The position numbers and the translations under genes were made by a program. A stretch of DNA of 64,000 nucleotides from Frigoribacterium faeni (GTDB lineage Bacteria > Actinomycetota > Actinomycetes > Actinomycetales > Microbacteriaceae), in contig NZ_BJUV01000007.1 of assembly GCF_007988805.1 (NCBI RefSeq), positions 1-64,000 on the forward strand. The letters are read 5' to 3'. Of this stretch, positions 3,196-55,318 are shown piece after piece. Within the stretch, counting starts at the first letter, position 1; every line of letters starts with the position of its first letter. The notes below the pieces were generated by a model. That model made no database searches. It was not told the DNA's origin and saw nothing but the letters and a program-made list of their open reading frames with translations.

Positions 3196-5859
3196 GTGAT
3201 CACATCGACCCGACGCCGGCGCGTGCGCCTCGGCGCCGCCCTGACCCTGGCCGGAGCCCTCGTGCTCGCACCGGTCACCGCCTTCGCGGCCGAGCCGGGC
3301 GCCGACGCCCCGACGACCACGGGGGCCGAGGAGGCGCAGCGGACGACCGAGACCGGCGCCGTCGTCGAGTCTCCCGCCCCCTCCGACACAGCCGCCTCGA
3401 CGCCGGCCGCCGATCCCGCCGATCCGAGCGGGACGCCCGCGTCGACCCCGGCCGCCGAGGCGCCCGCCGCGGACGCGACCGAGGACGCCGCCGAGGCGCC
3501 CGCCCCCGCCGAGACGCCCGTCGCGGACGCGACCGAGGACGCCCCCGACGCGCCCGCCCCCGCCGAGACGCCCGCCGCGACCGACGAGACGGCCGGAGCC
3601 GACGCGCTCGCCGCCGGCGAGCTGATGAACTACGTGGTCAACGTCGACCCGACCGAGCCCGCGACCGCGGCCGCCCGCGACGCCGTCGTGGCGGCCGGCG
3701 GCGTCGTGTTGATGAGCTACCCCGAGATCGGGGTGGTGACCGCGCAGTCGACGGACGACGGGTTCCTCGACGCGATCCGCGCCTCCTCGGGGGTGCAGTC
3801 GGCCGGACCCACGCGTCAGGCCGCCGTCACCGAGGGCGCCGTCCCGACCGGCTGGGCCGGCGGCACGCTCGCCATCGACCGCCCGCGCGCCGAGGGCGGT
3901 GCGACCGCGGCGCCGCTCGAGTCGCAGCAGTGGGACATGACCGCGATCGGCGCCCCCGAGGCGCGTTCGATCGAGCCCGGGGACAGCGATGTGCTGGTCG
4001 GCGTGCTCGACAGCGGCATCGACATCACGCACCCCGACCTCGCCACGCAGGTCGACCCCGCCGCCTCCGTCGGCTGCTCGGTCAACGGCATCCCGGACCA
4101 GGACGTCTCGGCATGGGTCCCCGTCGACGACAGCGAGTCGCACGGCTCGCACGTCGCCGGCACGATCGGCGCGGACGCCGACGGTCAGGGCATCACGGGC
4201 ATCGCGCCCGGCGTCACCCTGGCCAGTGTCAAGGTCGTCAACTACGACGGCTTCATCTACCCCGAGTACGCGCTCTGCGGCTTCATGTGGGCGGCGGCCG
4301 AGGGCATGGACGTCACCAACAACAGCTACTACGTCGACCCGTGGGCGTTCTGGTGCGAGGGTCAGCCGGAGCAGCAGCCCGCGCTCGACGCCGTCGAGAA
4401 GGCCGTCGCCTGGTCGCAGCAGCAGGGCGTGCTGAACGTCGCCGCCGCCGGCAACGAGGACTACGACCTGGCGAACAAGACCACCGAGTCGACGAGCCCC
4501 GACGACGGCGTCTACGACGCCGAGGGGAACCACGTGTCCGGTCCGCGGATCATCGAGGACCGCGACGTCTCGCAGGGCTGCGTCGATCTGCCCGCCGGCG
4601 TCGACGGCGTCGTGACCGTCGCCTCGGTCGCTCAACAGCCGGACGGGTCGGTCGCCAAGTCGTCGTTCTCGAACTACGGCGAGGGCGAGATCGACATCGC
4701 CGCCCCCGGCTCGGCCATCCTCAGCACGGTCTTCGGCGGTCGGTACGACGTCTACAGCGGCACCTCGATGGCGTCGCCGCACGTCGCCGGCGTCGCTGCG
4801 CTGCTGGCCTCGGTGCACCCCGACGCGAGCCCCGCCGAGCTGCAGGCGCTGCTGACCTCTCAGGCGACCGACCTCGGCGACACCGAGCTCTACGGCGCCG
4901 GCCTGGTCGACGCGTTCGCCGCCGTCACCGAGGATCTCGACCTCGGTCCGATTGCCGCCGTCGCCGACGGGACGATCCAGGCGGGTGTGCCGTTCCGGCT
5001 GCGGGGCGCGAATCTCACCCCGGGCGACGTCTTCGCGCTGTCGATCGCGACCGACGGCGGCACGCAGCCCGTCGCCTCCCTCGACTCCGTGTCCGTCGAC
5101 GAGAACGGAGACCTGGACGCCATCGTGACCGTCCCCCCGGAGACGCCGACGGGCCCGGCCGTCCTCTCGCCTCTGGGCGGTGCGACCACGGCGCCGTTCA
5201 CCGTGCTCGTCACGGTCACGGCTCCGCTGGCCGGGCCCGTGGTCACCTCGCCGGCTCAGGGCGCCGAGCTCGAGCCCGGCACGGTCGCCGTCACCGGCAC
5301 GGGCGTTCCGGCCGCCCGGATCCAGGTCGTCCTCGCGACGTCCGGCGGCGACATGCTGCGCTCGGACGACGTCTCCGTGACGGCGGACTCCGCCGCAGCG
5401 GCCCTGGCCGCACCGGCGTCCACGCCCTTCGACCCGGAGCGCTCGCTCACCTTCGGCGAGACCTTCGTCGACGCGGCCGGGGACTGGAGCATCGACTTCA
5501 CGTCGGTCCCGGCGGGCGACTACATCGTCGCGGGTCAGGGCTTCCTGGCGGACGACAGCGTGACCCTGACCGGCCCCGCCGTCGGCTTCTCCGTCGTCGG
5601 CGACGCCGCCGCGGTGCCCGATCCGTCGGCGCCCCCGGCCGTCGACGTCCCCGCCGGCGACGTCCCGCCCGTCGTCGTCCCCGCCGGTGGCCCGACCGCG
5701 CTCGCCTACACGGGCTCGGAATCGACGCCCGTCATGGGGGCCGCCGCCGCCCTCGTGCTGGCCGGACTCGCCTTCACGGTCGCCGCGGCCGTCCGCCGTC
5801 GTCGTCCACGAGCCGAGGAGGCGCGGGTCGGCTCGGTCGCCGACCGCACCACCGACTGA
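3196..5859 (+). CDS. Secreted S8 subtilisin-like protease with LAXTG wall anchor
   Basis: The 887-residue precursor is an exported serine protease. The GTG at 3196 is chosen because AGGAG lies 5 nt upstream and the protein then begins with TRRRRVRL and a hydrophobic signal peptide ending near AFA (about residue 33). A Pro/Ala/Glu/Asp-rich linker with near-repeats follows (about 35-135), then an I9-like prodomain (about 140-205). The S8 triad is Asp272 (VLDSGID), His316 (HGSHVAG) and Ser524 (GTSMASPHVAG), with the oxyanion Asn in AAGNED. C-terminal Ig-like domains precede LAYTG (836-840), a membrane helix and RRRR, which is a class E sortase signal. No sortase gene is in the window. The cytoplasmic tail EEARV is encoded by one copy of the 14-bp dispersed word. 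A TAGTCT at 3111-3116 could be its -10 box. Confidence 0.93.
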   Translation: MITSTRRRRVRLGAALTLAGALVLAPVTAFAAEPGADAPTTTGAEEAQRTTETGAVVESPAPSDTAASTPAADPADPSGTPASTPAAEAPAADATEDAAEAPAPAETPVADATEDAPDAPAPAETPAATDETAGADALAAGELMNYVVNVDPTEPATAAARDAVVAAGGVVLMSYPEIGVVTAQSTDDGFLDAIRASSGVQSAGPTRQAAVTEGAVPTGWAGGTLAIDRPRAEGGATAAPLESQQWDMTAIGAPEARSIEPGDSDVLVGVLDSGIDITHPDLATQVDPAASVGCSVNGIPDQDVSAWVPVDDSESHGSHVAGTIGADADGQGITGIAPGVTLASVKVVNYDGFIYPEYALCGFMWAAAEGMDVTNNSYYVDPWAFWCEGQPEQQPALDAVEKAVAWSQQQGVLNVAAAGNEDYDLANKTTESTSPDDGVYDAEGNHVSGPRIIEDRDVSQGCVDLPAGVDGVVTVASVAQQPDGSVAKSSFSNYGEGEIDIAAPGSAILSTVFGGRYDVYSGTSMASPHVAGVAALLASVHPDASPAELQALLTSQATDLGDTELYGAGLVDAFAAVTEDLDLGPIAAVADGTIQAGVPFRLRGANLTPGDVFALSIATDGGTQPVASLDSVSVDENGDLDAIVTVPPETPTGPAVLSPLGGATTAPFTVLVTVTAPLAGPVVTSPAQGAELEPGTVAVTGTGVPAARIQVVLATSGGDMLRSDDVSVTADSAAAALAAPASTPFDPERSLTFGETFVDAAGDWSIDFTSVPAGDYIVAGQGFLADDSVTLTGPAVGFSVVGDAAAVPDPSAPPAVDVPAGDVPPVVVPAGGPTALAYTGSESTPVMGAAAALVLAGLAFTVAAAVRRRRPRAEEARVGSVADRTTD
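5816..5829 (+). repeat. 14-bp dispersed word, copy 1
   Basis: Exact AGGAGGCGCGGGTC. It encodes part of EEARV in the C-terminal tail of the subtilase. Confidence 0.8.
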
Positions 5860-5877
5860 CCGCGTCATCGATCCACC

Positions 5878-5911
5878 GCGACGGCGGGCGCCCTCGGGCG
5901 CCCGCCGTCGC
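5878..5911 (+). terminator. Strong hairpin terminator after the subtilase gene
   Basis: Bases 5878-5893 and 5896-5911 form a perfect 16-bp GC-rich stem with a 2-nt apparent loop, 18 bp after the stop codon. Confidence 0.85.
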
Positions 5912-6061: not shown

Positions 6062-8314
6062 ATGTCGCAGCAGAGCCGAGCACCGGGTGCGCCGCGCCCC
6101 CCGGGCGCCCGCGGGGCGAAGCCCGCATCGGCCGGAAAGCGCCTCGACATCCAGGGTCTGCGCGCCGTGGCCGTCGTGGCCGTGGTCGTCGAGCACGTCT
6201 CGGGGTGGCCCCGCGGCGGCTTCGTCGGGGTCGACGTCTTCTTCGTCATCTCGGGGTTCCTCATCACCGGGCTGCTCCTGCGCGAGCACGAGCGCACCGG
6301 TCGCATCTCGATGCGCCGCTTCTACCTCCGTCGCGTCAAGCGTCTGATGCCCTCGGCGGCGGTCGTGTTCGTCGTCACGCTCGGCGCCGTGGCCGCCCTG
6401 CTGTCGACCACGAGGCTCGTCTCGTCCGCCGTCGACGCGGGCTGGTCGGCCGTCTTCCTCGCCAACTGGCACGAGGCCGCGCGAGGCGTCGACTACTTCG
6501 CCGCCGACGGCCCGGTGTCGCCGTTCCGGCACTTCTGGTCGTTGTCGGTCGAGGAGCAGTTCTACCTCGTCTGGCCGATGCTGGTGCTGGCGGCCGCCGT
6601 GCTCGCCGGCCGACGTCTGCGCGGCGCGCTCGGCGTCGTCCTCGCCGCGGTCTGCGCCGGCTCCTTCCTCTGGGCCGTCGTCCAGTCCGCCGACGCCCCC
6701 GTCGTCGCGTACTACTCGACGTTCACCCGCACCTGGGAGCTCGGGGCCGGCGCCCTGCTGGCCGTCACCGTCGGGCTCTGGCGATCCGTGCCTCCTGCGC
6801 TCGGGACCGCGCTCGGCTGGATCGGCACGGCGGTCATCGTCGCATCGGTGCTGATGATCGACCAGAGCTGGGGCTTCCCCGGGCCGTGGGCGGCGGTGCC
6901 CGTCGTGGCGACCGTCGCCGTCATCGCCGGCGGCTCCGTGCCGGGCGCGCGTCGACCGTGGCCGCTCACGAACCCGGTCGCCGCCTACCTCGGCGACATC
7001 AGCTACTCGCTCTACCTCTGGCACTGGCCCGCCCTGGTCGTCATCCGCGCCGTCGCGCCCGAGGCGACCGCGGCCGTCTACGTCGCGGCCCTCTCGACGG
7101 CGATCGTGGGGCATCACCTCATCGAGAAGCCCGCGATGGCGGCGTCCTGGGATCTCCGAGCCCGGCTGCGGCGACGCGATCGGCCGCGGACTCCGGGGCG
7201 CCACCGCGAACAGCGGATCGCCGCCGTCGGGGCGCTCGCCGTCGTCACGATGGCCGTGATCGCTCTGGCCGCCGACAACGTCAAGCCGATCGCGGCGCCC
7301 CCCGTGATCACCGCCGGGACGGGCGGGTCGGTCGGCGGGTCCACCGGCGACGGCTCCGGAGGCGCGGGTGGCGACGATGGCGCAGGCGACGGCGCCGCCG
7401 GGGGCGACGACGGGGCCGGTGGCGCGACCGGCGGCGAGCTCGGCCCGCTGCGCACGGCCCTCCGCGAGCAGACGATCGCCGCCCTGGGGGCCACCACCTG
7501 GCCCGACCTCGATCCGCCGATCGACGGCGTCATCCCCGGGGGCGCGAACCTGCCCTGCGGCGACGTCGTCACCGTGGCCCCGGCCGAGCGGTGCACCTTC
7601 GGGGCGGCCGACGCCGCGACCACGATGGTGCTCGTCGGCGACTCGACGGCCGCCCACCAGCTCGACTCGTTCGTGGCACTGACCGAACGGTCCGACGGCG
7701 AGCTGCGGGTCGTCAGCCGCGCGGGCTTCGCCTGCTCGTTCGTGGACCTCGCCTGGGACACGGAGGACACCGAGGCCTGTGCCGATCACCGGGCCGAGAC
7801 GCTCCGACTGATCGAGAGCCTCGAGCCCGACCTCGTCGTGGTGCAGAACACCTACGAGCCCATGCCGCTCGCCGGCGAGGGCCGCGATGCGACCGTCGCC
7901 GAGTTCGCCGACGGCCTCGGGCGCTACCTCGACCGCATCGATCCTCACGTCGGCCGCGTCGTCCACCTCTCGCCGCCACCGCCTGGGGCCAGCATGCGCG
8001 AGTGCTACCGGCCCGGAGGCTCGCCGGTCGACTGCCTCACCCGCGTCGGAGGGCCCTGGCGTGAGCGGGCGGCGGCGATCGGCGCGCTCGCCGCCGACCG
8101 TGGGCAGCCCTGGGTCGACGCTCGGGAGTTCACCTGCGTCGACGACGTCTGCCCGGCGTTCATCGGCGACGACGTGGTCAAGATCGACTACGTGCACTAC
8201 TCGGGGGCGTTCGCGGTCGCGATGGCGCCGGCCCTCGGCGAACGGCTGGCCGTCGACGGCGTCCTGTCGGGTGATCCCGACTCGGACGGCGCGGCCGACG
8301 GTGATTCCCAGTGA
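6062..8314 (+). CDS. Acyltransferase-3 / SGNH membrane O-acyltransferase (OafA type)
   Basis: The 750-residue protein is predicted to O-acylate a surface glycan such as peptidoglycan or an exopolysaccharide. Residues about 20-350 form a multi-helix Acyl_transf_3 domain with the typical RLDIQGLRAVAV opening, GGFVGVDVFFVISGFLIT and SVEEQFYL. A Gly/Asp-rich linker (about 420-455) leads to an extracytoplasmic SGNH domain with GDS (Ser528) and DYVH (Asp709, His712). The ATG at 6062 is chosen over an upstream in-frame ATG at 6017 because AGGAGG lies 4 nt before it. It stands alone between a terminator and the Rpf gene. The acyl acceptor cannot be read from the sequence. Confidence 0.92.
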   Translation: MSQQSRAPGAPRPPGARGAKPASAGKRLDIQGLRAVAVVAVVVEHVSGWPRGGFVGVDVFFVISGFLITGLLLREHERTGRISMRRFYLRRVKRLMPSAAVVFVVTLGAVAALLSTTRLVSSAVDAGWSAVFLANWHEAARGVDYFAADGPVSPFRHFWSLSVEEQFYLVWPMLVLAAAVLAGRRLRGALGVVLAAVCAGSFLWAVVQSADAPVVAYYSTFTRTWELGAGALLAVTVGLWRSVPPALGTALGWIGTAVIVASVLMIDQSWGFPGPWAAVPVVATVAVIAGGSVPGARRPWPLTNPVAAYLGDISYSLYLWHWPALVVIRAVAPEATAAVYVAALSTAIVGHHLIEKPAMAASWDLRARLRRRDRPRTPGRHREQRIAAVGALAVVTMAVIALAADNVKPIAAPPVITAGTGGSVGGSTGDGSGGAGGDDGAGDGAAGGDDGAGGATGGELGPLRTALREQTIAALGATTWPDLDPPIDGVIPGGANLPCGDVVTVAPAERCTFGAADAATTMVLVGDSTAAHQLDSFVALTERSDGELRVVSRAGFACSFVDLAWDTEDTEACADHRAETLRLIESLEPDLVVVQNTYEPMPLAGEGRDATVAEFADGLGRYLDRIDPHVGRVVHLSPPPPGASMRECYRPGGSPVDCLTRVGGPWRERAAAIGALAADRGQPWVDAREFTCVDDVCPAFIGDDVVKIDYVHYSGAFAVAMAPALGERLAVDGVLSGDPDSDGAADGDSQ

Positions 8315-8404
8315 ACGTTGACCTTCACGGGACCGAGCCCATGGGCGTGCCGATCGGGCTGTGGAGAACCCGGTCCGCGCCTCCGGCAGACCGACCGGTC
8401 CGAG

Positions 8405-9306
<902 letters not shown>

Positions 9307-9316
9307 GTCCGGGCGA

Positions 9317-9360
9317 CGACGACGGGGAGGCGCGGGGCGACCCGCGCCTCCCCGTCGTCG
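9317..9360 (+). terminator. 20-bp hairpin terminator after the Rpf-LysM gene
   Basis: Bases 9317-9336 and 9341-9360 are perfectly complementary with a GCGA tetraloop. Both arms contain the GGAGGCGCGGG word, so here the dispersed word forms an inverted pair that works as a terminator. Confidence 0.9.
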
Positions 9361-9400
9361 TGCCTAGGATGGTCCGGACCGCTCCCCGTGGAAGGACCCC

Positions 9401-10576
9401 GTGACGAAGGCCCCCACCGTCTACGACGTGGCCGCGCACGCCGGCGTCTCCATCGCGACCGTGTCGCGGGTGCTCCGCCGACCCGACGACGTCCGACCCG
9501 AGACGCGCACCCGGGTGCTCGGCTCGGTGCGCGCGCTCGGCTACGTGCCGAGCGGCGCGGCCCGGGGGCTGGCCGGCCGGCGTCACGGCGTGCTCGGCCT
9601 GTTCCTCCCGGGGCACGACGCGATCGACGAGCCCGAACCCGACTGGGCCTCGCTCACCGACTCGAGCCGCATCCCCCTGATCGACGACCGCCTCGGCGAC
9701 GATCGCCTCGGTGCCGGCGAGGAGGCGCGGATCGACTCGCCCTCGGCCCTCACGACCGCGCGGCACTGGTCCAACCCCGCCAACCTCTACTTCGACGAGG
9801 TGCTGCGCGGCGCAGAGGTGGAGTCGTGGCGCCGCGGCTTCGCCCTCATGGTCGCCGCCGGACGCGGCTCGAGCCGCGAGGTCATCCTCAACGACATCGC
9901 CGGCCGGGTCGACGGCCTCGCCGTGCTGGCCCAGACCGTGCCGGCCGACCTGCTCGCGCACGTCTCGCGTCGGATCCCCGTGGTGGTGCTCGCCGACTCA
10001 CGGCCCGGCGACGAGCTGGATCACGTGAGCGTCGACAACACCGCGGGCATGCGCGCTCTCACCTCGTTCGTCCTCGAGGAGCACGGCGCCACCGACCTCG
10101 TGTACGTCGCCGGCCCGTCGGACTCGCCCGACGAGGCCGACCGGCACCGGGGCTTCGACGAGGCCGTGGCGACCGGCGCCGCCGACGGGTCCGGCGCCGC
10201 CGTGCGCGTGCGCGTCGAGCGGGGCGAGTTCAGCCGGGTCGGAGGCCGCCGCGCCGCCGAGGCTCTGCTCGTCTCGGGCGAACGACTACCCGACGCCGTG
10301 GTCTGCGCCAACGACCAGTCGGCGCTCGGCGTGCTCGACGTCTTCGCCCGGGCCGGGGTCGACGTGCCCGACCGGGTGCTCGTGACCGGCTTCGACGGGA
10401 TCGAGGCCGGCCGGTTCTCCGCCCCGCGCCTCACGACGGTGCGGCAGCCGATGGGCGAGCTCGGCCGGGTCGCCGTCCGCTCCGTGGTGAGCCGCCTGAC
10501 CGACCCCGGGCTGCCTCCGCAGCGGGTGACCCTGCCCGTCGAGGTCCTGCTGCGCGAGAGCTGCCCTGCGCGCTGA
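9401..10576 (+). CDS. LacI-family transcriptional regulator
   Basis: The 391-residue protein has an N-terminal LacI helix-turn-helix (VYDVAAHAGVSIATVSRVL, residues 7-25) and a periplasmic-binding-protein-like sensor domain ending in the usual VTLPVEVLLRES. It is about 55 residues longer than normal because of an acidic insertion (about 72-128, rich in Asp/Glu/Arg) between the first beta strand and NLYFDEVLRGAE. The GTG at 9401 follows GGAAGGA by 4 nt. TAGGAT (9365-9370) is a possible -10 box. It is separated from the beta-glucoside operon only by the convergent hmp gene and is the nearest candidate regulator for the LacI-type operator at 12386. Its dispersed 14-bp word begins inside the stop codon region. 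Confidence 0.92.
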   Translation: MTKAPTVYDVAAHAGVSIATVSRVLRRPDDVRPETRTRVLGSVRALGYVPSGAARGLAGRRHGVLGLFLPGHDAIDEPEPDWASLTDSSRIPLIDDRLGDDRLGAGEEARIDSPSALTTARHWSNPANLYFDEVLRGAEVESWRRGFALMVAAGRGSSREVILNDIAGRVDGLAVLAQTVPADLLAHVSRRIPVVVLADSRPGDELDHVSVDNTAGMRALTSFVLEEHGATDLVYVAGPSDSPDEADRHRGFDEAVATGAADGSGAAVRVRVERGEFSRVGGRRAAEALLVSGERLPDAVVCANDQSALGVLDVFARAGVDVPDRVLVTGFDGIEAGRFSAPRLTTVRQPMGELGRVAVRSVVSRLTDPGLPPQRVTLPVEVLLRESCPAR

Positions 10577-10588
10577 CCCGCGCCTCCT
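10575..10588 (-). repeat. 14-bp dispersed word, copy 2
   Basis: Exact word in the reverse orientation, overlapping the stop codon of the LacI gene. Further CGCCTCCTCG-like variants follow in tandem to about 10650, giving a pyrimidine-rich tract. Confidence 0.8.
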
Positions 10589-10653
10589 CGCTCCCTCGCC
10601 CCGCGCCTCCTCGTCTCCCCGCCCCGCTCCTCCTCGCGCCCCCTCCTCATCCC

Positions 10654-10742: not shown

Positions 10743-12080
10743 TCAGCCGCGCTGGCCGGTGTCGATGCCGGTGACGCTGCCGTCGTCCGGCCCGAACACG
10801 AAGTAGTGCACCCGGTCCGCCTCGACCCCGTGCTCGATCAGGGCGGCGCGGGCGATGGCCATGAACGGCACCGGCCCGCAGAGGAACACCCGGTGCTGCG
10901 GGGTGAGGGCCACCGTGCCGAGGTCGATCGGGTCGAGATAGACGCCGGGGCCGTCGATCGACGCCTCGGCCAGGGCGCTGAGCGCCGACAGCGAGCCCTG
11001 GGTGTAGCTGACCCGCAGGGTGGCGTCCGGCATCGACGCGACGAGGGCCTCGAGCTCGGCGCGGTGCGCGTGCCGCTCCGGCGTCCGCTCGAAGTGCAGC
11101 GCCGTGACCTGCCGTGACGGGTCGGTGCGGGCGAGGTGGTCGAGCATGCCGAGCACCGGCGTGCAGCCGATCCCGGCCGAGACGAACAGCAGCGGGGCGT
11201 CGTCGAGCTGGTCGATGGTGAGCGACCCGATCGGCGGCGACACGTGCACGACGCTGCCGACCCGCACCTCGCGGAGCAGGTGGTTCGACACCTCGCCGTC
11301 GGGCGCGAACCCGCCCCCGTCGAGCACGCGAGCGCTGATCCGCCACTGCTCGTCGTGGCCGCCGCGGAGGCTGTACTGCCGGATCTGGCGGGCGCCGTCG
11401 GCGAGCTCGACCTGAACCGACGCGAACTGCCCGGCCCGGTATCCCGGCAGCGCCTCGCTGTCGGCCGAGACGAGGGTGAGGGCGACGACGTCCTCCGCCT
11501 CGATGCGGTGCTCGGTGACGATCGCCTCGCGCCACTCCTCGTCGGGTTCCAGATCGGCCCGGGTGTACAGGTCGGCGACGCTCGCCGCGACCTCGTCGGT
11601 CACCTGGCGGTACAGCGCCGTCCAGGCGTCGTCCGCCTCCGCGTCGAAGCGGTCCGCCAGGGAGGCGCGGGTCGCCTCCCGCAGATGACCCACGAACACG
11701 TCGTAGTCGCCTCGACGGATGCCCAGCGCCGCGTGGCGCTGGGCCAGGCGCGAGGTGATCTCGGCCGCGGTCGACCCGGCCAGCGTGGGAGCGCCGGCCT
11801 GGTGGGGGGAGGGGTGCAGGGTCGCGGCGGCGCGGGCGCTCGTGCTCGTGCCGCTGCCGGGGGCGGCGTCGATCACGGCCTCGGCGAGGGCGACCACGGT
11901 GCGGGCCAGTTCGCGGGCCTGGCGGCCCTGCGCGTGCTCGCCCCGATTGAACCGGTCGCGCAGCAGATCGGGCCGCGCCGCGAAGAGGCGGTCGTAGAAG
12001 TCGGCGGCGATGTCGTCGGCGTGCGCGGCGACGTCGGGCAGCGTCCGCGCCAGGGCGACGGTCTGCGACGCGGTGACCAT
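10743..12080 (-). CDS. hmp: Flavohemoglobin (nitric oxide dioxygenase)
   Basis: The 445-residue cytoplasmic enzyme detoxifies NO to nitrate with O2 and NAD(P)H. The globin domain has Tyr29 (B10 position, FYDRLF), proximal His116 (RHAALGI) and Tyr126. The reductase part has the FAD motif RQYSL (234-238), the NAD-binding GIGCTPVLGML and a C-terminal YFVFGPD. It is longer than the usual 400 residues because of a roughly 32-residue Ala/Gly/Ser/Thr/Pro-rich insertion (about 72-103) inside the globin domain, before the proximal-histidine helix. The ATG at 12080 is preceded by AGGAGG at 6-7 nt. It is divergent from the ABC operon. No clear NsrR box was recognised. Confidence 0.93.
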   Translation of the reverse strand: MVTASQTVALARTLPDVAAHADDIAADFYDRLFAARPDLLRDRFNRGEHAQGRQARELARTVVALAEAVIDAAPGSGTSTSARAAATLHPSPHQAGAPTLAGSTAAEITSRLAQRHAALGIRRGDYDVFVGHLREATRASLADRFDAEADDAWTALYRQVTDEVAASVADLYTRADLEPDEEWREAIVTEHRIEAEDVVALTLVSADSEALPGYRAGQFASVQVELADGARQIRQYSLRGGHDEQWRISARVLDGGGFAPDGEVSNHLLREVRVGSVVHVSPPIGSLTIDQLDDAPLLFVSAGIGCTPVLGMLDHLARTDPSRQVTALHFERTPERHAHRAELEALVASMPDATLRVSYTQGSLSALSALAEASIDGPGVYLDPIDLGTVALTPQHRVFLCGPVPFMAIARAALIEHGVEADRVHYFVFGPDDGSVTGIDTGQRG

Positions 12081-16042: not shown

Positions 16043-17826
16043 CCGCCACGGACCTCACCACCGCAGACCGCGCCTCCTCGTCCTCCGACGACGTCCTGTT
16101 GGACGTCCGCGACCTCAGCGTCGTCTACGAGAGCGCCGGCGCCGAACCCGTGCAGGCGGTCGACCACGTGTCGTTCCAGCTGAAGCGGGGCGAGTTCGTC
16201 GGCCTGGTCGGCGAGTCCGGCTCGGGCAAGTCGACGCTCGGTTACGCGCTGACCCGGCTGCAGAAGCCGCCGGCCCGCACCAACGGCGGCAGCATCCGGT
16301 TCGACGGCGCCGACGTGCGCGACCTCGACACCGAGGCCCTGCGTCAGCAGCGCCGGGGCGGCTTCGCGATGGTGCTGCAGTCGGGCATGAACGCGCTCAA
16401 CCCGGTGCGCACCATCCGCAACCACTTCGTCGACGTGTTCAAGGCCCACGGCCATGTGCCGCGCGACCGCTGGCACAGCCGCGCGGCCGAGCTGGTGTCC
16501 AAGGTCGAGCTCGACCCCGGTGTGCTCGCGCGGTTCCCCGGTGAGCTGTCCGGCGGGATGCGCCAGCGCGTCTCGATCGCGCTGGCCCTCTCGCTCGAGC
16601 CGCAGCTGATGGTGTTCGACGAGCCCACCACCGCGCTCGACGTGCTCGTGCAGCACGCCGTGATGGACACCATCATCTCGCTGCAGAGGAGCGAGGGGTT
16701 CACGGCCGTGCTGATCAGCCACGACCTCGGCATCGTGCTCGAGTCGGCCCAGCGGGTGCTCGTGATGCACGAGGGCCGCATCGTCGAGGACGGCCCCTCG
16801 GCCGGCGTGCTCGCCGACCCGCAGGACGATTACACGCGCATGCTGCTCTCGCACTACGCCGATCCCCGTGCCGAGGTCGTCTCGCTGCCCGGGTTCGAGG
16901 ACCGCTCGGTCCGTCGGGCGCGCGGCGACCGACGGGTCGACACGACCACCTCGGTGCCGACGGTCGCGACCCGGGGGCAGCGCGTCGCCCAGCACGCGAT
17001 CACGGTCAGCGGCGTGTCCAAGACCTACGCGCCTCCTCGGCGGGGGGACGACCCCGTCCGGGCCGTCCGCGACGTGTCGTTCACGCTGGAGCCCGGCCAG
17101 TCGCTGGCCCTGGTCGGGCAGAGCGGCTCGGGCAAGAGCACCATCGCGAAGCTCGTCACGGGCGTCGAGAAGCCCACCGGAGGCAGCGTCACGTTCGGCG
17201 ACACCGACGTGACGACGCTGCGGGGCCGCGCCCTGCGGAGCTTCCGCAGCGACGTGCAGATGGTCTTCCAGGACCCGTACGCGGCGCTCAACCCGCTGCA
17301 CACCGTCGAGTACACGCTGACCCGCCCGGTCGTGAACTACACGGGACTGACCGGTCAGGAGGCGCGGCGTCGGGTGCTCGAGCTGCTCGAGACGGTCGGT
17401 CTGACGCCGGTCGAGCAGTTCGCGGCGAAGCTGCCGCACCAGCTCTCGGGCGGGCAGCGTCAGCGCGTCGTGATCGCCCGCGCCCTCGCGAGCGACCCGC
17501 AGGTGATCATCGCCGACGAGCCGGTCTCGATGCTCGACGTCTCGCTGCGGGCCGGCGTGCTGGCCCTCCTCGAGGACCTCCGCGAGCAGTGGGGCGTCTC
17601 GATGCTCTACATCACCCACGACCTGCTGAGCGCCCGCCTGATCACCGACGACATCATGGTGCTCCACCAGGGCGCCGTGGTCGAGCGCGGTCACACGGCC
17701 GAGGTGCTGCAGCGGCCCACCGATCCGTACACGGTGAGGCTGCTCGACGCGGTGCCGAACCCCCGGCGCCGCGCGCAGGAGGCGGCGACCGAGGTGCACC
17801 CGCGCCCCGGGGGTGGTGCGCTCTGA
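16039..17826 (+). CDS. ABC transporter ATPase, two fused nucleotide-binding domains (DppD-DppF)
   Basis: The 595-residue protein contains two complete ATPase domains. Domain 1 has Walker A GESGSGKST (about residues 62-70) and signature LSGGMRQRVSIA. Domain 2 has GQSGSGKST (about 360) and LSGGQRQRVVIARAL. Each is followed by an oligopeptide/dipeptide-type C-terminal extension (QDDYTRMLLSHY and TDPYTVRLLDAVPNP). It therefore replaces separate DppD and DppF subunits and should energise the two permeases. The ATG at 16039 overlaps the previous stop, with AAGGAGG 7 nt upstream. The N-terminal tail TTADRASSSS is encoded over a variant of the dispersed word. Confidence 0.94.
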   Translation: MTATDLTTADRASSSSDDVLLDVRDLSVVYESAGAEPVQAVDHVSFQLKRGEFVGLVGESGSGKSTLGYALTRLQKPPARTNGGSIRFDGADVRDLDTEALRQQRRGGFAMVLQSGMNALNPVRTIRNHFVDVFKAHGHVPRDRWHSRAAELVSKVELDPGVLARFPGELSGGMRQRVSIALALSLEPQLMVFDEPTTALDVLVQHAVMDTIISLQRSEGFTAVLISHDLGIVLESAQRVLVMHEGRIVEDGPSAGVLADPQDDYTRMLLSHYADPRAEVVSLPGFEDRSVRRARGDRRVDTTTSVPTVATRGQRVAQHAITVSGVSKTYAPPRRGDDPVRAVRDVSFTLEPGQSLALVGQSGSGKSTIAKLVTGVEKPTGGSVTFGDTDVTTLRGRALRSFRSDVQMVFQDPYAALNPLHTVEYTLTRPVVNYTGLTGQEARRRVLELLETVGLTPVEQFAAKLPHQLSGGQRQRVVIARALASDPQVIIADEPVSMLDVSLRAGVLALLEDLREQWGVSMLYITHDLLSARLITDDIMVLHQGAVVERGHTAEVLQRPTDPYTVRLLDAVPNPRRRAQEAATEVHPRPGGGAL

Positions 17827-19980: not shown

Positions 19981-20018
19981 CGCAGGAGGCGCGGGTCGGC
20001 CGACCCCCGCCTCCTGCG
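19981..20018. terminator. Hairpin between convergent beta-glucosidase and acetyltransferase genes
   Basis: Bases 19981-19998 and 20001-20018 pair over 18 bp with one mismatch. The left arm contains exact copy 4 of the 14-bp dispersed word (19984-19997). It serves both convergent genes. Confidence 0.85.
19984..19997 (+). repeat. 14-bp dispersed word, copy 4
   Basis: Exact AGGAGGCGCGGGTC in the left arm of the bidirectional terminator. Confidence 0.8.
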
Positions 20019-27619: not shown

Positions 27620-27690
27620 GGGGGTCAACCTAGTCGGCGGCGGTGTCCGGCGGGAGCCGCGCCTCCTCGACCCGCGGCCCCCGTTCGAGA

Positions 27691-33196: not shown

Positions 33197-33260
33197 CGGC
33201 ACCAGGAGACGGGCACGACGCCAGAAGAAGCCCTGGCGCTGTGCCCATCTCCTGGTGCCG
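33197..33260. terminator. Long hairpin between the M20 and LacI genes
   Basis: GGCACCAGGAGA at the left pairs with the right end of the element, followed by inner stems GGGCAC/GTGCCC and GACGCCAG/CTGGCGCT, with single mismatches. It lies between convergent genes and should end both transcripts. Confidence 0.8.
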
Positions 33261-33339
33261 AAGTGCCGAAGTGCCGGAGTGTTGGAGGGCCGGAGGGCCG
33301 GAGGGCCGGAGGGCCGGAACGCCGGAACGCCGGAGCGCC
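33260..33339 (+). repeat. 8-bp tandem repeat, ten units
   Basis: Ten head-to-tail octamers with consensus GGAGGGCC: two GAAGTGCC, one GGAGTGTT, four GGAGGGCC, two GGAACGCC and one GGAGCGCC. Neighbouring units are identical in runs, as expected for slippage or unequal crossing-over. The unit is not a multiple of three and the array is intergenic. Confidence 0.9.
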
Positions 33340-33378
33340 GCGGGCCGAGGCGTGCGACGGGCGCGGCTCGGCGCGGGG

Positions 33379-38694: not shown

Positions 38695-38788
38695 CCCGGG
38701 GGCCCCACCGACCCGCCGACGCCCGCGTCCGCGACCGGCGCCGCGCCTCCTCGGCTCCCGTCTCCCGTCTCCACAGAAAGGCACCACC

Positions 38789-41492: not shown

Positions 41493-42719
41493 ATGACCTC
41501 GACCCGCGCCTCCTCGGCCTCCGCTCCCGACACCGACCCCGACGTCGCCCGCGCGTACGACGACCTCGTCGCGCTCGTGCAGCACGGACCGAGGTTCCAC
41601 GGGACGCCGGGCATCGCCGCCGCCGCGGACTGGCTGGAGGGGCGCCTGACCGCGGTCGGACTGTCCGTCGACCGGCAGTCGGTCGCGCTGCCCGGCTGGC
41701 AGCCCGGGACCGTGCACCGGCTCGTCGTCCGGTCCCCGATCGAGCGCGAGCTGCCGGCCTGGCCGATGCTCTGGAGCGGGTCGACGGACGGCGCCGTGCG
41801 GGGGACGGTCGAGTCGGTCGGACCGCAGGGCCTCTGGGGCGACTCCATGGTCTGGCGCAAGTTCGTCGTCCGCGACGACGCCGGCCGGCCGGTGGCCTAC
41901 CTGCACGCGCGCGACGGCGGACCCGCGGCTCCTCAACCCCTGCCGGCCGGTTCCGACCTCGACGTGGCGCACCTGGCCATCGGACGACTCGACGGTCTGC
42001 AGCTGACCGAGTGGCTGGACGACGGGAGGCCCGTCGTCGTCGAGGCGGAGGTCGACAGCGGGCCCGTCGACGCGGCCGTGAGCGACAACCTGATCGTCGA
42101 CCTCGCCGCGGCCGACGGCGGCTCCGACCCCGCCCGCGGCACGGTCCTGCTCTGCGCCCACTACGACACGTTCTTCAACACCGTCGGCGCCTACGACAAC
42201 GGCAGCGGCACGATCGCCCTGCTCGAGCTCGCCGAACGCTGGGCGGCGAAGGCCCCCGCCGTCCCGGTCCGGCTCGTCTTCTTCACCGCCGAGGAGTGGC
42301 ATCTCGGCGGTTCCCGCCACCACCTCGACGCGGCGTCGGCTGCCGACCTCGAGGCGATCGACTACGTGCTGAACATCGACGGGCTGGGCCGCGGCTCGTT
42401 CGTCGAGGCGTTCGCCGGCCCCGAGGCCTTCTCGACCGCGTTCCGCGACGCCCTGATGGCGTACGCCGCCGGGACGCGGCCCGACCTCGAGCTGGTGACG
42501 CGGTTCCCGCCGACCGTCGGGACCGACGACGCCTCGTTCCACCGGGCCGGCGTGCCCAGCGCGTTCCTGACCTTCAACGACCTCCACCGGCTGCACCAGC
42601 CCGACGACGAGCCGAACCTCGGCATCGCCGCCAACATCGCGTGGACGGTGCCTCTCGCCGAGCACCTCGTGGCGACCCTGCCGCGCCCGACGCGGGTCGC
42701 GCCTCCCGGGATCCTCTGA
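41493..42719 (+). CDS. M28-family metallopeptidase (cytoplasmic)
   Basis: The 408-residue protein is a di-zinc aminopeptidase-fold hydrolase. Ligands are His223 and Asp225 (CAHYDTF), Asp235 (GAYDNGSG), Glu267-Glu268 (FTAEEWHLGGS), Asp296 (NIDGLG) and His368 (RLHQPDDEP). No signal peptide is visible, unlike many M28 enzymes, so it likely cleaves an amide bond in an imported compound. AAGGAA lies 5 nt before the ATG at 41493. Its N-terminal STRASS is written by a dispersed-word copy. It is the last gene of the operon. Confidence 0.88.
   Translation: MTSTRASSASAPDTDPDVARAYDDLVALVQHGPRFHGTPGIAAAADWLEGRLTAVGLSVDRQSVALPGWQPGTVHRLVVRSPIERELPAWPMLWSGSTDGAVRGTVESVGPQGLWGDSMVWRKFVVRDDAGRPVAYLHARDGGPAAPQPLPAGSDLDVAHLAIGRLDGLQLTEWLDDGRPVVVEAEVDSGPVDAAVSDNLIVDLAAADGGSDPARGTVLLCAHYDTFFNTVGAYDNGSGTIALLELAERWAAKAPAVPVRLVFFTAEEWHLGGSRHHLDAASAADLEAIDYVLNIDGLGRGSFVEAFAGPEAFSTAFRDALMAYAAGTRPDLELVTRFPPTVGTDDASFHRAGVPSAFLTFNDLHRLHQPDDEPNLGIAANIAWTVPLAEHLVATLPRPTRVAPPGIL
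41501..41514 (-). repeat. 14-bp dispersed word, copy 7
   Basis: Exact word in the reverse orientation within the first ten codons of the M28 gene, encoding TRAS. Confidence 0.8.
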
Positions 42720-44519: not shown

Positions 44520-47500
44520 TCAGCGCTCGTCGGTCGACGCCCTGGGATGCCCGACGGCCTCGGCGGGCCCGAACCGGAACACGGGCAGGGTCTCGGCGTC
44601 GAAGCCGGCGGCCTTCTGGGTGAACTCGAGCGAGTAGACGTGCTCGGGCCCGAACCGGCGGCTGAAGGTCCAGTCGCCGTCCGCGTCGGCGACGGGCGTC
44701 GCGATGCGGGTGCCCGAGGTCGTCACGACCTCGATGGTCGCGAACGGCGTCGCCCGCCCGGAGAACGTCGTGTCGGCGTCTCGGTCGTAGCCCTCCCCGG
44801 GCGCGGGGGAGACGATCTCGAGGCCGCGCCAGACCGGGGCCTTGAGCGTCAGGGTCGTCCGATCCGTCTCGCCGGCGCGCTCCTGCACGATCGTCAGCGC
44901 GTAGTCGCTCCGCGGTCCGTAGTCGCGCTGCACCGCCCAGCGGCCGTCGACCCCGACCTCGGCGGTGCCCATCGCGCCGCCCCACTGGTTCGTGACGGTG
45001 ATGTTCGCCCCCGCCGTGGCCGTGCCCCCGAGGACCAGCGGGCCCGGGCGGTAGGTGTCGCCGTCACGGTGCGTGGTCACCTCGATCGGGGCCAGCGGGA
45101 TGTCGGGTGCCCAGACGAAGCGGACGTCGTCGCCCTGGCCGGTCGTCGCGGCCTGCGTGAGGGTGATGGCGTAGGTGCGGACCGGACCGTATGCGCGGAC
45201 GGTGGACCAGCTGCCGTCGGCCGTCACCCGGGTGCGGAACAGCTCGGCGCCCAGATCGGTGGTGGCCACGACCTCCGTGTGCGGTGTGGCGACGCCGCGG
45301 AACTCGGTCGGCTCGTACGGTCGGTAGCGATCGCCGACCTCCGGGCTGATCAGCTGCAGCTGCCGCCAGGCGGGTGCGCGCAGTCCGAGCCGGATCGTGT
45401 CGCCGTCTCCGCCTCGGGTCTGCGTCACGGTCAGGGCGTAGTCGGCCCGGGGACCCATGTCGCGTCGCACGGACCAGCGTCCGTCGGATCCCACGGTGGT
45501 GCGGCCCATCGACCCTCCCCACTGGTTGGTGATGACGATCGAGGCCCGCGGGGTGCCTGCGCCTTCGAGGGTGACCGGCCCGGGCACGTACTCGCCGCCG
45601 TCGATGTGGCTGGTGACCGTCGTCGGAACCCAGCCGATGACCGGGCTGAGCGCGATCCTGATCTGGTCCGGTTGGCCGTCCGGCGCCGTCTGGGCGACGC
45701 GCACCGTGTAGTCGGCGACGGGACCGAGCTCGGCCGGGGCGCTCCAGTCGCCGGTGGTCTGCGAGGCACGGGTCGCGAACAGGCGACGGTCCCACTGGTT
45801 GGTCGCCGTCACCCAGGCGCCGGGTGTCGCACGTCCTCTGAAGATCGTCGTGCCGGGCACGTACGTGTCGCGCGCGGCGTGGCTGGTGACCGCGAGGGGG
45901 CGGAACGACCCGAGCGGGAGGAGCGTGAACTCCGCGGAGACGGAGCCGCGCCCGTCGACCAGCGTCTGCGTCGCCGTCAGACGGTAGACGGCGGTCGGCC
46001 CCCAGGTGCGATCGATCGACCAGCGGCCCAGGGCGTCGGCCGAGGCGCGGCCCGCCTCGTTGCCCCACTGGTTGCGGACGACGACGCGGGCGTAGGGCGT
46101 CGCCGAGCCCGACAGGGAGGTGACGACGTTCTCGCGGTACCACCCGTCGGCGGGCCCGCCGATGGCCACGGGGGCGATCTCCTGCCGGGCGTCGGGGACG
46201 ACCCGCACCTCGTCGGAGGAGCGCACGTCGCCGCGAGCGCGCTGACTCACGACGACGGCCGTCTCGGCGTGGCCGGGGGCCAGCTCGACCTCAGCCGACC
46301 AGGTGCCGTCGGCCACGGGCACGACCACCGTCGTGTCGTCGGTCGCCACGGTCACCTCGGCGCCGTCCGCGCCCGTGCCGGAGACCGTCGTGAGACCGGG
46401 CGGCACCTGCCCGGTGGCGGGTGTCAGCAGGTCGACGGCGGCCCCGAGGTCGACCTCGACGCGGGCGGCGCCGGCCGGTGCGCCGTCGACGCTCTGCGTC
46501 ACGTCGAGCGCGTGTCGCCCGGGTCCGATGGCCGGGTCGATCTCGAGCGACCACGCCTCGTCGACGACGCGTGTCGAGCCGAGGGTCCGTCCCTCGGTGC
46601 TGACCTCGATCGCGGCGCCGTCGTGTCCGCCCCCGGACACGGTCGCCCGCGGCCCGAGCTCGCGGGGGACCGTCACCTCGGCGGTCACCTCGCGCGGTGG
46701 CACGGTGATCGTGACCGGGGTGGAGCCGACGGCGCGGAAGTCCGACGGCGTCCCCGTGCCGGAGACCCCGAAGCCCACCGACGCGGGTGTGCTCACCGCG
46801 ACCGACCAGCGCACCTCGCCGCCACGCGGGAGGGAGGTGGTGTCGTCGCTCCACGACAGCTCGAAGGAGGCGCGGCGTCCGTCCGTCGAGAAGGTCCCGT
46901 CGGTGAGGTCGAGACCCGGATCGGCCGCCCAGGTCCCTCCGGCGGAGCGCCGATCGGCGCTCAGGACCCGCTGCCCGGGTGCGATGCGCGTGCCCTCGGG
47001 CGCGGTGACCTCGGCCGTCCCCTCCAGGCGGGCGAAGGCGTCCCGGATGCCCACGCCGAACAGCACCGCCGTGTCACCGCCGCGTTCGAGGTCGACGGTG
47101 TCGCCCGCGACCGCGGTGATGCGCCCGCCGTCGACGACGTCGGCGACGAGGGTGGTGGCGTCGAAGAGGTCGCCGGCCACGATCTGCTCGACGTGGACGG
47201 AGTTGCTCCCGGGTGCGAGCCGGGTCGCCGTGAGCTGGAACGTGCCGTTGCCGCGGACGTCGGCGGTGATCCCGCCGATCCGGATCACCGCGTAGGGCGT
47301 CGCCGTGCCGACCACGACGGCGGTCCGGGCGATGTCGTTCACCTGGGCGATCCGGGCGTCGATCGAGCGACGGTCGAACCGCTGATCGGCGAGAGGTGCG
47401 CCGCCGCCGGCCAGGGACGGCCGGAGGCCCGTGCCTGGCCAGACCGCCGGATCGGCCGCCTGGACCCCGCCGAGCCTGACCGCCCCGTCGTCGCTCTGGC

Positions 47501-48499: not shown

Positions 48500-51400
48500 T
48501 CACCGTTCGGCCGGGAAGTCGGCGGGCGCGAAGCGGAACCGGGGGTGGTCGCCGGTGACCCCGGCGGCGCTCTCCTGGGTGAGATCGATCAGGTACGCGT
48601 ACGACGGACCGTGGAACCTCGTGTTCGACCAGATGCCGTCGCGGTCCGCCGCCGTCTCGAACAGCTGCCCGCCGAGCGACGTCGTGGCTCGGACGATCGC
48701 GAACGGGGTCGCCCGACCGGTCATGGTGAAGGCCTCGCCATCGCCGTAGCCCTCCCCGGGGGCGGGGGCGACGAGCTCGATCTCGGTCCAGACCGGGGCT
48801 CGCAGCTCGAAGCGTCCGATCTCGTCCGTCTGATCGTCCCGGGTCATGACGAGCCGGAGGGCGTAGTCGGCGTCGGGGCCGAAGACCCGTCGCAGAGACC
48901 AGGCGCCGTCGGCGTCGACCACCGGGCGTCCCATCACGGTGCCCCACTGGTTCGTGATCTCGACGACGGCGCCCGGTGCACCGGTGCCGCGCAGTTCGAG
49001 CTCACGGGGCCGATAGGTCTCGCCGTCGACGTGGCTGGTCACGGTGAGGGGTGCCCACGGCAGATCGGGGGCCCAGACGAAGGTGTCGAGGGAGTCGGTC
49101 CGTCCGTCTCGGGCCTGCTGTGCGATGTCGATCCGGTAGACGTTGTCCGGGCCGTAGGCGCGCGTGTTGCGCCAGACGCCGTCGACGTCGGTCTCGACCG
49201 AGAACAGCACGTTGCCGGCCGCCGTCGTGGCCGTGACCGTCGAGTACGGGGTCGCCGTGCCGACGAACTCGCTCGGCTCGCCCGGTGCGTAGCGGTCGCC
49301 CTCGACGGGGCTCGTCAGGGCGAGCGGACGCCAGACCGGCGCCCGGAGCTCGAGCGTCACGACGTCGCTCCGGTCTCGGAACGTCTGGGTGAAGGTGACG
49401 TCGTAGTCGGCGCTGGGTCCGAGCTCGCGGCTGAACGACCACTCGCCCTGGGCGTCGACGGTCGCCTCGCCGATGGGCTGGCTCCACTGGTTCGTCGCGA
49501 CGACGGCGGCGGTGGGCGTGCCGGTGCCGGTGAAGGCGACGCTGCCCGGGCGATACGTCTGCCCGTCGACGTGGCTGGTGACCGCGAGGTCGACGAAGTC
49601 CAGCTCGGGGACGAGCTCGAGGGTGATCCGCCCGGTCGTGCCGTCGGGGGCCTTCTGGGTGATCGTGATCTCGTAGGCGGCGACGGGGCCGAGCATGGTC
49701 TCCGCGGTCCACGCCCCGGCGACCTGGGAGGCGCGGGTCGAGAAGAGCACGCGGTCGTACTGGTTGCGCGCCTCGATGTAGGCGCCCTGCGTGGCCCGCC
49801 CGGCGAAGGTCACGGTGCCGGGGACGTAGGTGCCCCCGTCGCTGTGGCTGGTCACGACGAGCGGCACGAACGAGCCGTCGGCGAACAGCTCGAACACGGG
49901 AGAGGTGGAACCGCGTCCGTCGACGAGGCTCTGGGTGGCCGTCAACGCGTACCGCGCGGACGGACCGAAGGCCCGATCGAAGGCCCAGTCCCCGTTCACG
50001 TCGGCCACGGCGGTGGCCAGCACGGCGCCCCACTGGGCGCGGATCTCGACCGTCGCGTACGGCGTCGCCGTCCCCTGGACGGTCGTGTCCGCCAGGGGCG
50101 TGTAGAAGTGCGACGACGGTTCGGTGACGACGACGCCGCGCAGCTCCTGCGGGCCGTCGGGCACGACCTGCGCCGCGTCCGTCGTCACGAGGTCGCCACG
50201 GGCGTGCTGCGAGGCGGTGACGGGGACGACCGTGTGGCCGGGGCGGATCTCGACCCGTGCCTCCCACCGTCCGTCGTCCGCCACCGTCGCCGTCGCGACG
50301 TCGTCGTCGGCGGTGACCGTGATCTCCGCCCGTGCCGCTCCCGTGCCGCGCACGGTGGTGAGTCCCGGCACGATCTTGCCGTTCTCGGGTTCGATGACGT
50401 CGACGGCGGATCCCAGGTCGACCCGGGCCTCGGCCCGGCCGAAGGGTCGGTCGCCGACGGTCTGCTCGACCACGAAGGTGTGGTCGCCGTGACCGATCGA
50501 GGACGGCAGGGTGATCGACCAGGTCCCGGCGACGACCGCGGTCCGCCCCAGGACGGTGTCCCCTTCGCGGACGGTCACCGTCCCGTCGGCGTCGCCGACG
50601 CCGGAGATCGTGGCCGGCCGGGTGACGTCGTCGTCGAGCACGACCTCGGCCGTCAGGCTCGGAGCGGAGTCGTCGACCCTGACGTCGAACGAGCCCTCGG
50701 CCGATGCCGCTCCGGACGCGCTGCGGACCAGGGCGGCCCCACCGTCGAGGACGTCCCCGGGGCGGACGTCGTCGTCGAGTGTCAGGCGGAAGGCCGCGTA
50801 CTGATGGTCGGCACCCCAGAAGGCGTCCGTCAGGTCGGCGGGACCGTCGATGGTGGCCGTCCGTCGGTCGGCGGAGTAGTCGATCCGGTAGTTCGTCTGT
50901 CGGGCGTCGTCGGTGGTGCGCCGCGCCTCCACGTCGGCGAGCCGGCTGCCCGTCGGAGCCGTCAGGGTCAGCGGGCCGCGGACCTCGGGGGCGCGCACGT
51001 CGCTGCGCCCCCAGTCGGTCGTGCCGCCGGGGACCGCGCCCCCGACGGTCGTGTCGATGGTCGCCGCCCCGACGACGCGCGTCGGCGTGCTGCCGACCGC
51101 TCGGTAGTCGCCCGCCGAGCTGTCGCCCCGGTAGACGTACGACATCTCCGAAGCGACCGGCGCCGCAGAGGCGGGGGTGTCGACGGACAGCGTGTAGCGG
51201 TAGTACTCGTCCGCGGCCAGGGTGCCTCCGTTCGAGGCGAGGTCGAACCTGAGGCTCCGCCCGTCGTCGCCGGGTCGGCCGTTCGTGAGATCGAGCCGGG
51301 TGTCGGGAGTCCACGTCGCCCCCTCGCCCGTCCGGTTCGTCTCGGCGGCGACGGTCGTCTGCTCGGGGGTGAAGGTCGATCCCTCGGGCGCGGTCAGTTC

Positions 51401-52479: not shown

Positions 52480-52498
52480 TTCTGCGAAAGGCTTCGAC

Positions 52499-54688
<2,190 letters not shown>

Positions 54689-54700
54689 GGAGCGGCGCTG

Positions 54701-55318
54701 CTAGAGCCGACGGGCGGCGGCCACGAATTCGCGGATGAGCCCGAGGTCCTTCACTCCGCGCGAGGACTCGACTCCCGAGCTCACGTCGACCCCGACGGGC
54801 CCGAGTTCGCCGACCAGGCGCTCGACGTTGTCCGGGGCGAGTCCGCCCGCCAGGATCCACGGTCGGTGGGGTGGAGCGGCGAGGAGCGGGGCGGCGTCGA
54901 ACGTCGCCCCGGCACCGGGGTCCGCCGCGTCGATCAGCAGGGCGTCCTCGGCGAAGGCGACCCGCGCCTCCTCGGGCTCGGCGGCGTAGGCGCCGGCGTC
55001 GACGGCTCGGATGACGCGGAACCCCGCCGCGCGGGCCGCCGCGACGTCCGACGGCGTCTCGTCGCCGTGCAGCTGGACGGACCGCACACCCGACCGGACG
55101 GCGAGGTCGAGGACCTCGCCGAGGGGCTGGCCCCGGAACACCCCGACCGTCTCGACCGTGGGCGGCACGCGTTCGGCGAGCCGTCGTGCGCTCGGGGCGT
55201 CGAGGGTCCGAGGGCTTCCCGGCGCGAGGACGAAGCCGACGGCGTCGGCACCGGCCGCGACGGAGGTCTCGACGGCGTCGACGGTCGTCAGTCCGCAGAT
55301 CTTCACCCAGATGCTCAT
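54701..55318 (-). CDS. trpF: Phosphoribosylanthranilate isomerase
   Basis: The 205-residue TIM barrel converts N-(5-phosphoribosyl)anthranilate to CdRP in tryptophan synthesis. The catalytic Cys8 is in VKICGLTT, the catalytic Asp in ALLIDAADPGAG, and phosphate-binding motifs LAGGLAPDNV and VDVSSGVESSRG are intact. No other trp gene is nearby, so trpF is detached from the trp operon. CAGACT ends 7 nt before the ATG at 55318 and no Shine-Dalgarno is visible, so it may be leaderless. A dispersed-word copy encodes EEARV inside the gene. Confidence 0.95.
   Translation of the reverse strand: MSIWVKICGLTTVDAVETSVAAGADAVGFVLAPGSPRTLDAPSARRLAERVPPTVETVGVFRGQPLGEVLDLAVRSGVRSVQLHGDETPSDVAAARAAGFRVIRAVDAGAYAAEPEEARVAFAEDALLIDAADPGAGATFDAAPLLAAPPHRPWILAGGLAPDNVERLVGELGPVGVDVSSGVESSRGVKDLGLIREFVAAARRL
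54959..54972 (-). repeat. 14-bp dispersed word, copy 8
   Basis: Exact word inside trpF, encoding EEARV on the gene's strand. Confidence 0.8.

Follow-up and report, generated by a model that had tools for sequence, protein, structure and literature searches.

Motifs that mark DNA for uptake are known from two bacterial families only, the Neisseriaceae and the Pasteurellaceae, according to those sections of a 2025 paper on which we draw (PMC12616744). The DNA uptake sequence (DUS) of the Neisseriaceae is described, in the sections of PMC3630211 used here, as a short non-palindromic word of about a thousand or more copies that lies in coding sequences (CDS) as well as between genes and that occurs in dialects. 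We describe a word that resembles it in the actinobacterium Frigoribacterium faeni. The stretch analysed, hereafter the window, comprises the first 64,000 nucleotides of contig NZ_BJUV01000007.1 (assembly GCF_007988805.1). An earlier note on this DNA had drawn attention to a repeated 14-mer, AGGAGGCGCGGGTC, and had proposed three possibilities: a functional oligomer resembling Chi or the FtsK-orienting polar sequences (KOPS), a site bound by a protein, or a micro-repeat that is spreading.

The word is dispersed, non-palindromic and about 10–14 bp long, with GGAGGCGCGG as its core. Its tested anatomy matches that of the DUS and of the uptake signal sequence (USS) of the Pasteurellaceae in most features, including a genome-wide excess, presence on both strands without polarity, and sites that lie both inside CDS and in intergenic DNA, with inverted pairs. 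Uptake fits these observations better than the functions named in the earlier note. From this combined analysis we consider that the word is probably a self label of the DNA-uptake-sequence kind.

Excess, placement and conservation of the word

The genome of F. faeni (3,377,980 bases) holds 318 exact copies of AGGAGGCGCGGGTC, 151 on the plus strand and 167 on the minus strand, and no copy of the reversed word used as a control. Allowing up to one mismatch gives 19 matches in the 64-kb window, against a mean of 0.23 and a maximum of 2 in 100 dinucleotide shuffles. A comparison with Markov models, one of the checks proposed earlier, bears out the excess: over 464 kb of own DNA, made up of the window and 20 further stretches of 20 kb each, the core occurs 176 times against 8.6 expected at order 3, or about 20-fold. 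At maximal order the excess is small. The 8-mer GGAGGCGC ranks first with 369 copies against 254 expected, the top list does not contain the word's 12-mers, and little excess is left at 10–12 bases, in agreement with “a higher-order Markov expectation”, which the earlier note had held to speak against the word. We do not read this result as a refutation of the enrichment, because a maximal-order model takes sub-word counts as given, so that any word with enriched sub-words is absorbed. Predicted CDS of own DNA hold 108 core sites against a mean of 15.8 and a maximum of 28 in 100 synonymous-codon shuffles within genes, so the excess goes beyond codon usage. The same shuffles give means of 6.8 for 62 sites in a second genome (G003) and 6.3 for 50 sites in a third (G006). 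CDS were called throughout with a simple codon-usage gene finder, without annotation.

These counts bear on the proposal that composition, codon usage or ribosome-binding sites explain the word. The genome is GC-rich, AGGAGG is like a Shine-Dalgarno sequence, and the small excess at maximal order would be in keeping with such an origin. We give it virtually no credence in view of the order-3 and codon-shuffle results, the absence of the reversed word, the near-absence of the 14-mer from other genera of the family (0–1 copies per genome), and the position of the sites, since only 4 of the 151 non-CDS core sites in the three genomes stand where a Shine-Dalgarno sequence would. The core is also intolerant of change in its own genome. 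One-base variants of AGGAGGCGCGG within GGAGGC number 0 to 5 copies each in own DNA, near the background of 0.4 to 5 expected, while the A at -1 and the final two G are preferences only. Summed over positions, 164 single-mismatch copies stand beside 120 exact ones.

Core sites fall both within and between genes. The 176 in own DNA divide into 49 in CDS on the gene strand, 59 in CDS on the opposite strand, and 68 outside CDS or across their ends; predicted CDS cover 88–93% of the regions, so the core is denser between genes. Of the non-CDS sites, 52/68 in own DNA and 33/41 in G003 are closer to a 3′ end than to a start. A perfect reverse-complement partner lies within 60 nt of 26/68 (own), 8/41 (G003) and 11/42 (G006) non-CDS sites, against 7/244, 2/117 and 2/95, respectively, for GC-rich control words. 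Neighbouring copies of GGAGGCGCG up to 60 bp apart are arranged '+-' rather than '-+' in ratios of 17:5, 8:1 and 7:1 in the same three genomes.

One inverted pair in the window, with cores at 9326..9335 (+) and 9342..9351 (-), makes up the arms of a hairpin at 9316..9361 with a 21-bp stem, downstream of the predicted CDS 8617-9306 (fold -67.8 kcal/mol, z -7.6). This stem, the other intergenic hairpin pairs and the closeness to 3′ ends would suit an RNA element that acts as a transcription-terminator stem. As an account of the word we consider this very improbable: 108 of 176 own core sites are in CDS, on both strands, a perfect partner is found for only 26 of the other 68, and unpaired sites in CDS are apparently maintained, such as the one at 17358..17367 (+), which is exact in 10/10 aligned Frigoribacterium genomes.

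We found no polarity along the chromosome. Twenty samples of a complete Frigoribacterium chromosome hold 85 core sites on one strand and 79 on the other, and no origin and terminus split that was tried puts more than 56% of these 164 sites on one side. Chi and KOPS are usually polar along the chromosome, and the strand-bias check suggested earlier therefore goes against a KOPS-like role. It goes equally against a RecBCD-Chi-like one, and the RecC family PF04257 matches 0 of 14 genomes in a search that did not cover AddAB or AdnAB; in a control, it matched only E. coli among 14 known genomes. We regard a Chi-like recombination hot-spot word recognised by an enzyme of the AddAB or AdnAB type as quite unlikely. 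Such a word would be expected, as a self mark in repair, to sit on the chromosome, to be conserved and specific to a clade, and to be depleted on mobile DNA, as this one is, but the missing orientation bias and RecC family tell against it, and its intergenic density and hairpin pairing are, to our knowledge, not traits of Chi. As a separate observation, the final 20 or so sites among the matches listed for one contig (G349:C1, beyond about 349 kb) are all on the plus strand; its whole counts are 333 and 340.

Orthologous sites were compared next to two kinds of control. For the 30 core sites of the window in 14 relatives, 288 of 420 cells are unaligned, and 62 of the 132 aligned cells are exact, against 259/1699 for words of the same composition and 4187/15570 for random places. 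The exact fraction exceeds that of composition-matched words in 16/16 ordered genome comparisons. Examples are 16/21 against 51/268 (window-G002), 16/22 against 86/258 (G009-G010), 15/15 against 173/241 (G013-G005) and, with a thin margin between near-identical genomes, 28/29 against 366/390 (G013-G015); between the window and G003, 3/7 sites are kept, against 23/166 in the control. Over 12 ordered comparisons, which are not independent because pairs occur in both directions, 176 sites are the same, 35 are substituted (26 of them by one base) and 17 are gapped. The word's sites are thus held at orthologous places and change mostly by substitution. This conservation, together with the intolerance of the core to change, upholds the earlier suggestion of a maintained functional oligomer or protein-binding site.

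The mode of change bears on the other suggestion, a micro-repeat that spreads by insertion, which found no support: of the 52 aligned non-conserved sites, 35 are substituted and 17 gapped. The readable gap cases resemble local duplication or ambiguous alignment, and some show the word locally duplicated (15 bp). No clean insertion at an empty orthologous site was recognised among the aligned non-conserved sites, where some gap alignments are ambiguous. A mobile repeat inserted by a transposase, like repetitive extragenic palindromic (REP) elements or miniature inverted-repeat transposable elements (MITE), would account for the dispersal of the word, for the few gap cases with local duplications and for a 23-bp tandem array in the window. 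It is hardly credible in the light of the prevailing substitutions, the 108/176 core sites in CDS and the near-background frequency of single-mismatch words in GGAGGC.

Dialects, mobile DNA and competence genes

The exact 14-mer occurs 85–447 times in each of 15 other Frigoribacterium genomes, 0–1 times in each of 21 genomes from other genera of the family, and 0–4 times in 23 genomes of the order. The core was counted in 22 named genomes. It is present in 926–1576 copies in 6/6 Frigoribacterium (reversed control 52–148) and in 128–827 copies in 10/10 Curtobacterium (reversed control 25–118), in all of them above the genome's own control, and in 40–70 copies in three Frondihabitans and in Galbitalea, Herbiconiux and Salinibacterium, each below its reversed control (52–102). 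The word GGAGNCGCGGGTC has a match in 222/299 genomes of the family, where counts outside Frigoribacterium are mostly near the reversed control. Raised counts of GGAGNCGCGGGTC were seen in six genomes of the genus labelled g53 (16 to 63) and in one genome, G186, of g5 (38). In scans of viral contigs, the 14-mer and its reverse each match at least 120 stretches, with one copy each among the matches listed, a result that carries no weight either way.

Frigoribacterium and Curtobacterium have a common core with differing flanks. In Curtobacterium pusillum AA3, CTGGAGGCGCGG occurs 43 times against 0.33 expected and CTGGAGGCACGG 20 times against 0.2. The form GGAGTCGCGG reaches 17.7 copies per 100 kb in G006 and at most 1.7 in the other sampled genomes. 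A DnaK-GrpE-DnaJ tree, read from the 50 of 68 sequences that were labelled, groups Curtobacterium, Frondihabitans and Frigoribacterium with support 1.0 and places the window among named Frigoribacterium; the GrpE encoded in the window shares 92% identity with that of Frigoribacterium sp. CFBP 13712. Set beside this phylogeny of the labelled sequences, Frigoribacterium, Curtobacterium and G006 have distinct forms and Frondihabitans lies within the clade without the word. A candidate word of its own for Frondihabitans, CGAAAGACGG, was dropped: about 62 kb hold 11 sites, of which four fall in a repeat of L077 and the others in apparent coding contexts. Two metagenome-assembled genomes titled Frigoribacterium (L116, L117) were taken as mislabelled and excluded from the genus counts; they contain 0 core words and fall outside Frigoribacterium in the tree.

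A conserved chromosomal word that is dispersed and balanced between strands, and whose core does not tolerate change in its own genome, could also be bound by a putative nucleoid or chromosome-organising protein specific to the clade. The sites known for such a function, parS and matS among them, are far fewer or are tied to origin and terminus, unlike the 926–1576 copies in each Frigoribacterium genome. The change of flanks between sister lineages and the hairpin pairing also speak against this role, and we judge it unlikely, while giving it some weight.

The core is depleted on mobile elements, as observed for one megaplasmid and three prophage stretches. The Curtobacterium megaplasmid pCPAA3 has 2 core sites in 220 of its 567 kb (order-2 Markov expectation 2.2), the chromosome of its host has 55 in 400 kb (expectation 6.2), and all 58 copies of CCTGGAGGCGCGGTG in this genome are on the chromosome. 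The 18.1-kb prophage of F. faeni, described below, has 0 core words. So does its counterpart in G010, where one hit in the joined stretch falls beyond the prophage end, and so does an 18-kb stretch with a GC content of about 0.70 around a phage portal gene in G004. Among 201 ten-kb segments of Frigoribacterium DNA, the 13 with a GC content below 68% hold 11 core sites in total and those above 71% hold 4.0 to 5.5 each; the expectation drops about twofold toward low GC.

The prophage of F. faeni lies within dprA, two pieces of which flank a low-GC insert at about 170,430-188,494 of G000:C1 (L039-L040). G010, which is another species, has a related prophage at the identical place in dprA (G010:C1, about 604,244-622,732; L258, L527), and the two are 68–72% identical in their aligned parts. 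The F. faeni prophage has a portal protein that shares 51.6% identity with the portal protein of Microbacterium phages. Phage portal genes are found in 3/16 Frigoribacterium genomes with four hits, one in F. faeni, two in G010 and one in G004, and no dprA was seen within the 18 kb of the G004 stretch. In the part of PMC4774983 drawn on here, mobile elements that disrupt competence genes are portrayed as engaged in an arms race with transformation. The prophages in dprA suggest that transformation matters in the genus, which is not to say that the word is used.

Predicted homologues of the transformation machinery are present in the host. ComEC (PF03772), T2SSE ATPases and DprA are found in 14/14 genomes searched and ComEA in 26/26. 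A T2SSE hit near 460 bits, taken for PilB, is present in 10/14 genomes; the other four, F. faeni itself (G000), G002, G003 and G348, have a single TadA-type hit near 140 bits. In F. faeni the TadA-type ATPase is encoded within a Tad locus together with T2SSF, DUF4244 and TadE/G-like proteins, and comEA adjoins comEC. A loss of comEA in Frondihabitans was considered and discarded, because the hint arose from short flanks and the gene is intact in 2/3 genomes. Frondihabitans sucicola has comEA in two pieces in different frames (L214; G339:C1:2957559-2958190).

Sites in the window

All eight exact copies of AGGAGGCGCGGGTC are at the positions given for them by the earlier note. Three are on the plus strand: 5816..5829 in predicted CDS 3223-5859 (subtilase), 19984..19997 between genes, and 32189..32202 in predicted CDS 32062-33180 (M20 peptidase). 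The five on the minus strand are at 10575..10588, overlapping the 3′ end of predicted CDS 9401-10576 (LacI-type regulator); at 18695..18708, close to the 3′ end of predicted CDS 17922-18710; at 35738..35751 in predicted CDS 35685-36512; at 41501..41514, close to the 5′ end of predicted CDS 41493-42719 (M28 peptidase); and at 54959..54972 in predicted CDS 54701-55318, where the core is exact in 8/13 aligned Frigoribacterium genomes. The more than thirty further hits reported by eye are likewise real. GGAGGCGCG occurs 44 times in the window (22 on each strand), which is 36 times besides the exact copies, and only the coordinates of several examples were off by 1–2 bases.

The 30 cores of the window comprise 21 in predicted CDS and 9 between genes, on both strands, as had been claimed. 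Further copies of GGAGGCGCGG lie in CDS at 2350..2359 (-), 7358..7367 (+), 9721..9730 (+), 50921..50930 (-) and 60670..60679 (+), and in CDS on the opposite strand at 2913..2922 (+), 3777..3786 (-), 11661..11670 (+), 16068..16077 (-), 33161..33170 (-), 40226..40235 (-), 46866..46875 (+) and 49727..49736 (+). The copy at 22368..22377 (+) stands at the end of CDS 21462-22382, directly ahead of the next predicted start. Intergenic copies are found at 8375..8384 (-), 38741..38750 (-), 62649..62658 (+) and, upstream of the HSP70 (dnaK) gene, at 27657..27666 (-). Another, at 10601..10610 (-), is within the 23-bp tandem array (10577-10641), which lies downstream of predicted CDS 9401-10576 and repeats the word. 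The window also contains a tandem array at 33257-33340, with 10.5 copies of the 8-bp unit GCCGGAGG.

Comparison with known uptake sequences

If the word is a self label, a putative protein of the Tad/ComEA/ComEC route, located on the surface or associated with the pilus, would bind it in free DNA, and the DNA of close relatives would be preferentially taken up and recombined. Such biased uptake would lead chromosomes to gain and retain the word and would leave its dialects free to diverge between lineages. We lean towards the fuller proposal that the word of Frigoribacterium and Curtobacterium is a true DNA uptake sequence, differentiated into dialects by lineage and read via a Tad/Flp-type competence apparatus; theirs would be the third family with such a motif and the first that is Gram-positive. 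In the open-licence literature, partly surveyed, we came across no earlier description of uptake sequences for Frigoribacterium, Curtobacterium or any other actinobacterium.

Several observations weigh against an uptake function. Conservation and depletion on mobile DNA would also suit other chromosomal sites, and part of the depletion follows from the lower GC content of the megaplasmid and the dprA prophages. The machinery does not predict the word, because ComEC, the TadA-type ATPase, ComEA and DprA are also present in genera without it. No word-specific receptor, ComP-like or otherwise, was found in a search limited to ComEA, which occurs irrespective of the word. With its dprA interrupted, the strain of the window may now be non-transforming. 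Frondihabitans is sister to Frigoribacterium in the DnaK-GrpE-DnaJ tree (0.997) and yet lacks the word, which must have been lost there or gained twice. The spacing of sites is near random (coefficient of variation 1.21, 1.03 and 0.97 in the three genomes), and their position within genes has no consistent bias or trend in F. faeni, G003 or G006. In G006 the core tolerates one change, GGAGTCGCGG having 46 copies against 2.1 expected, and the non-CDS sites have no preference for 3′ ends (22 of 42, against 20 closer to a start).

If the proposal holds, self-labelling of DNA arose again in the Actinomycetota with a different pilus type, and natural transformation is implied in Frigoribacterium and Curtobacterium. 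The origin and loss of uptake sequences would also become testable, since neighbouring genera carry a strong, a weaker or no word.

Chi and KOPS are, like the present word, over-represented functional oligomers of the chromosome, and the word differs from them in being non-polar. A closer parallel for the machinery is Micrococcus luteus, in which Flp pili encoded by tad genes perform transformation together with ComEA and ComEC (PMC4322843, in part); homologues are present here, and the term “uptake sequence” is absent from the main text of that paper. The USS of the Pasteurellaceae occurs at 200–800 copies per Mb in the cited sections of PMC12616744, and the core at about 290–490 per Mb in Frigoribacterium, on rounded genome sizes. 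Like the word, the USS has no general orientation bias and has inverted intergenic forms, as related in the relevant passages of PMC2346458. The two differ in sequence, phylum and pilus type, and the intragenic position bias of the USS is not consistently present in it. The DUS of the Neisseriaceae is likewise of unrelated sequence. The word is GC-rich and belongs to a host in the Actinomycetota whose own genome has a TadA-type ATPase only and no PilB-type hit. The likeness extends to inverted pairs tied to terminators and to the balance between inexact and exact copies: the single-mismatch to exact ratio of AGGAGGCGCGG, 1.37, compares with examples of 1.15 and 1.45 for the DUS in the portion of PMC3630211 consulted.

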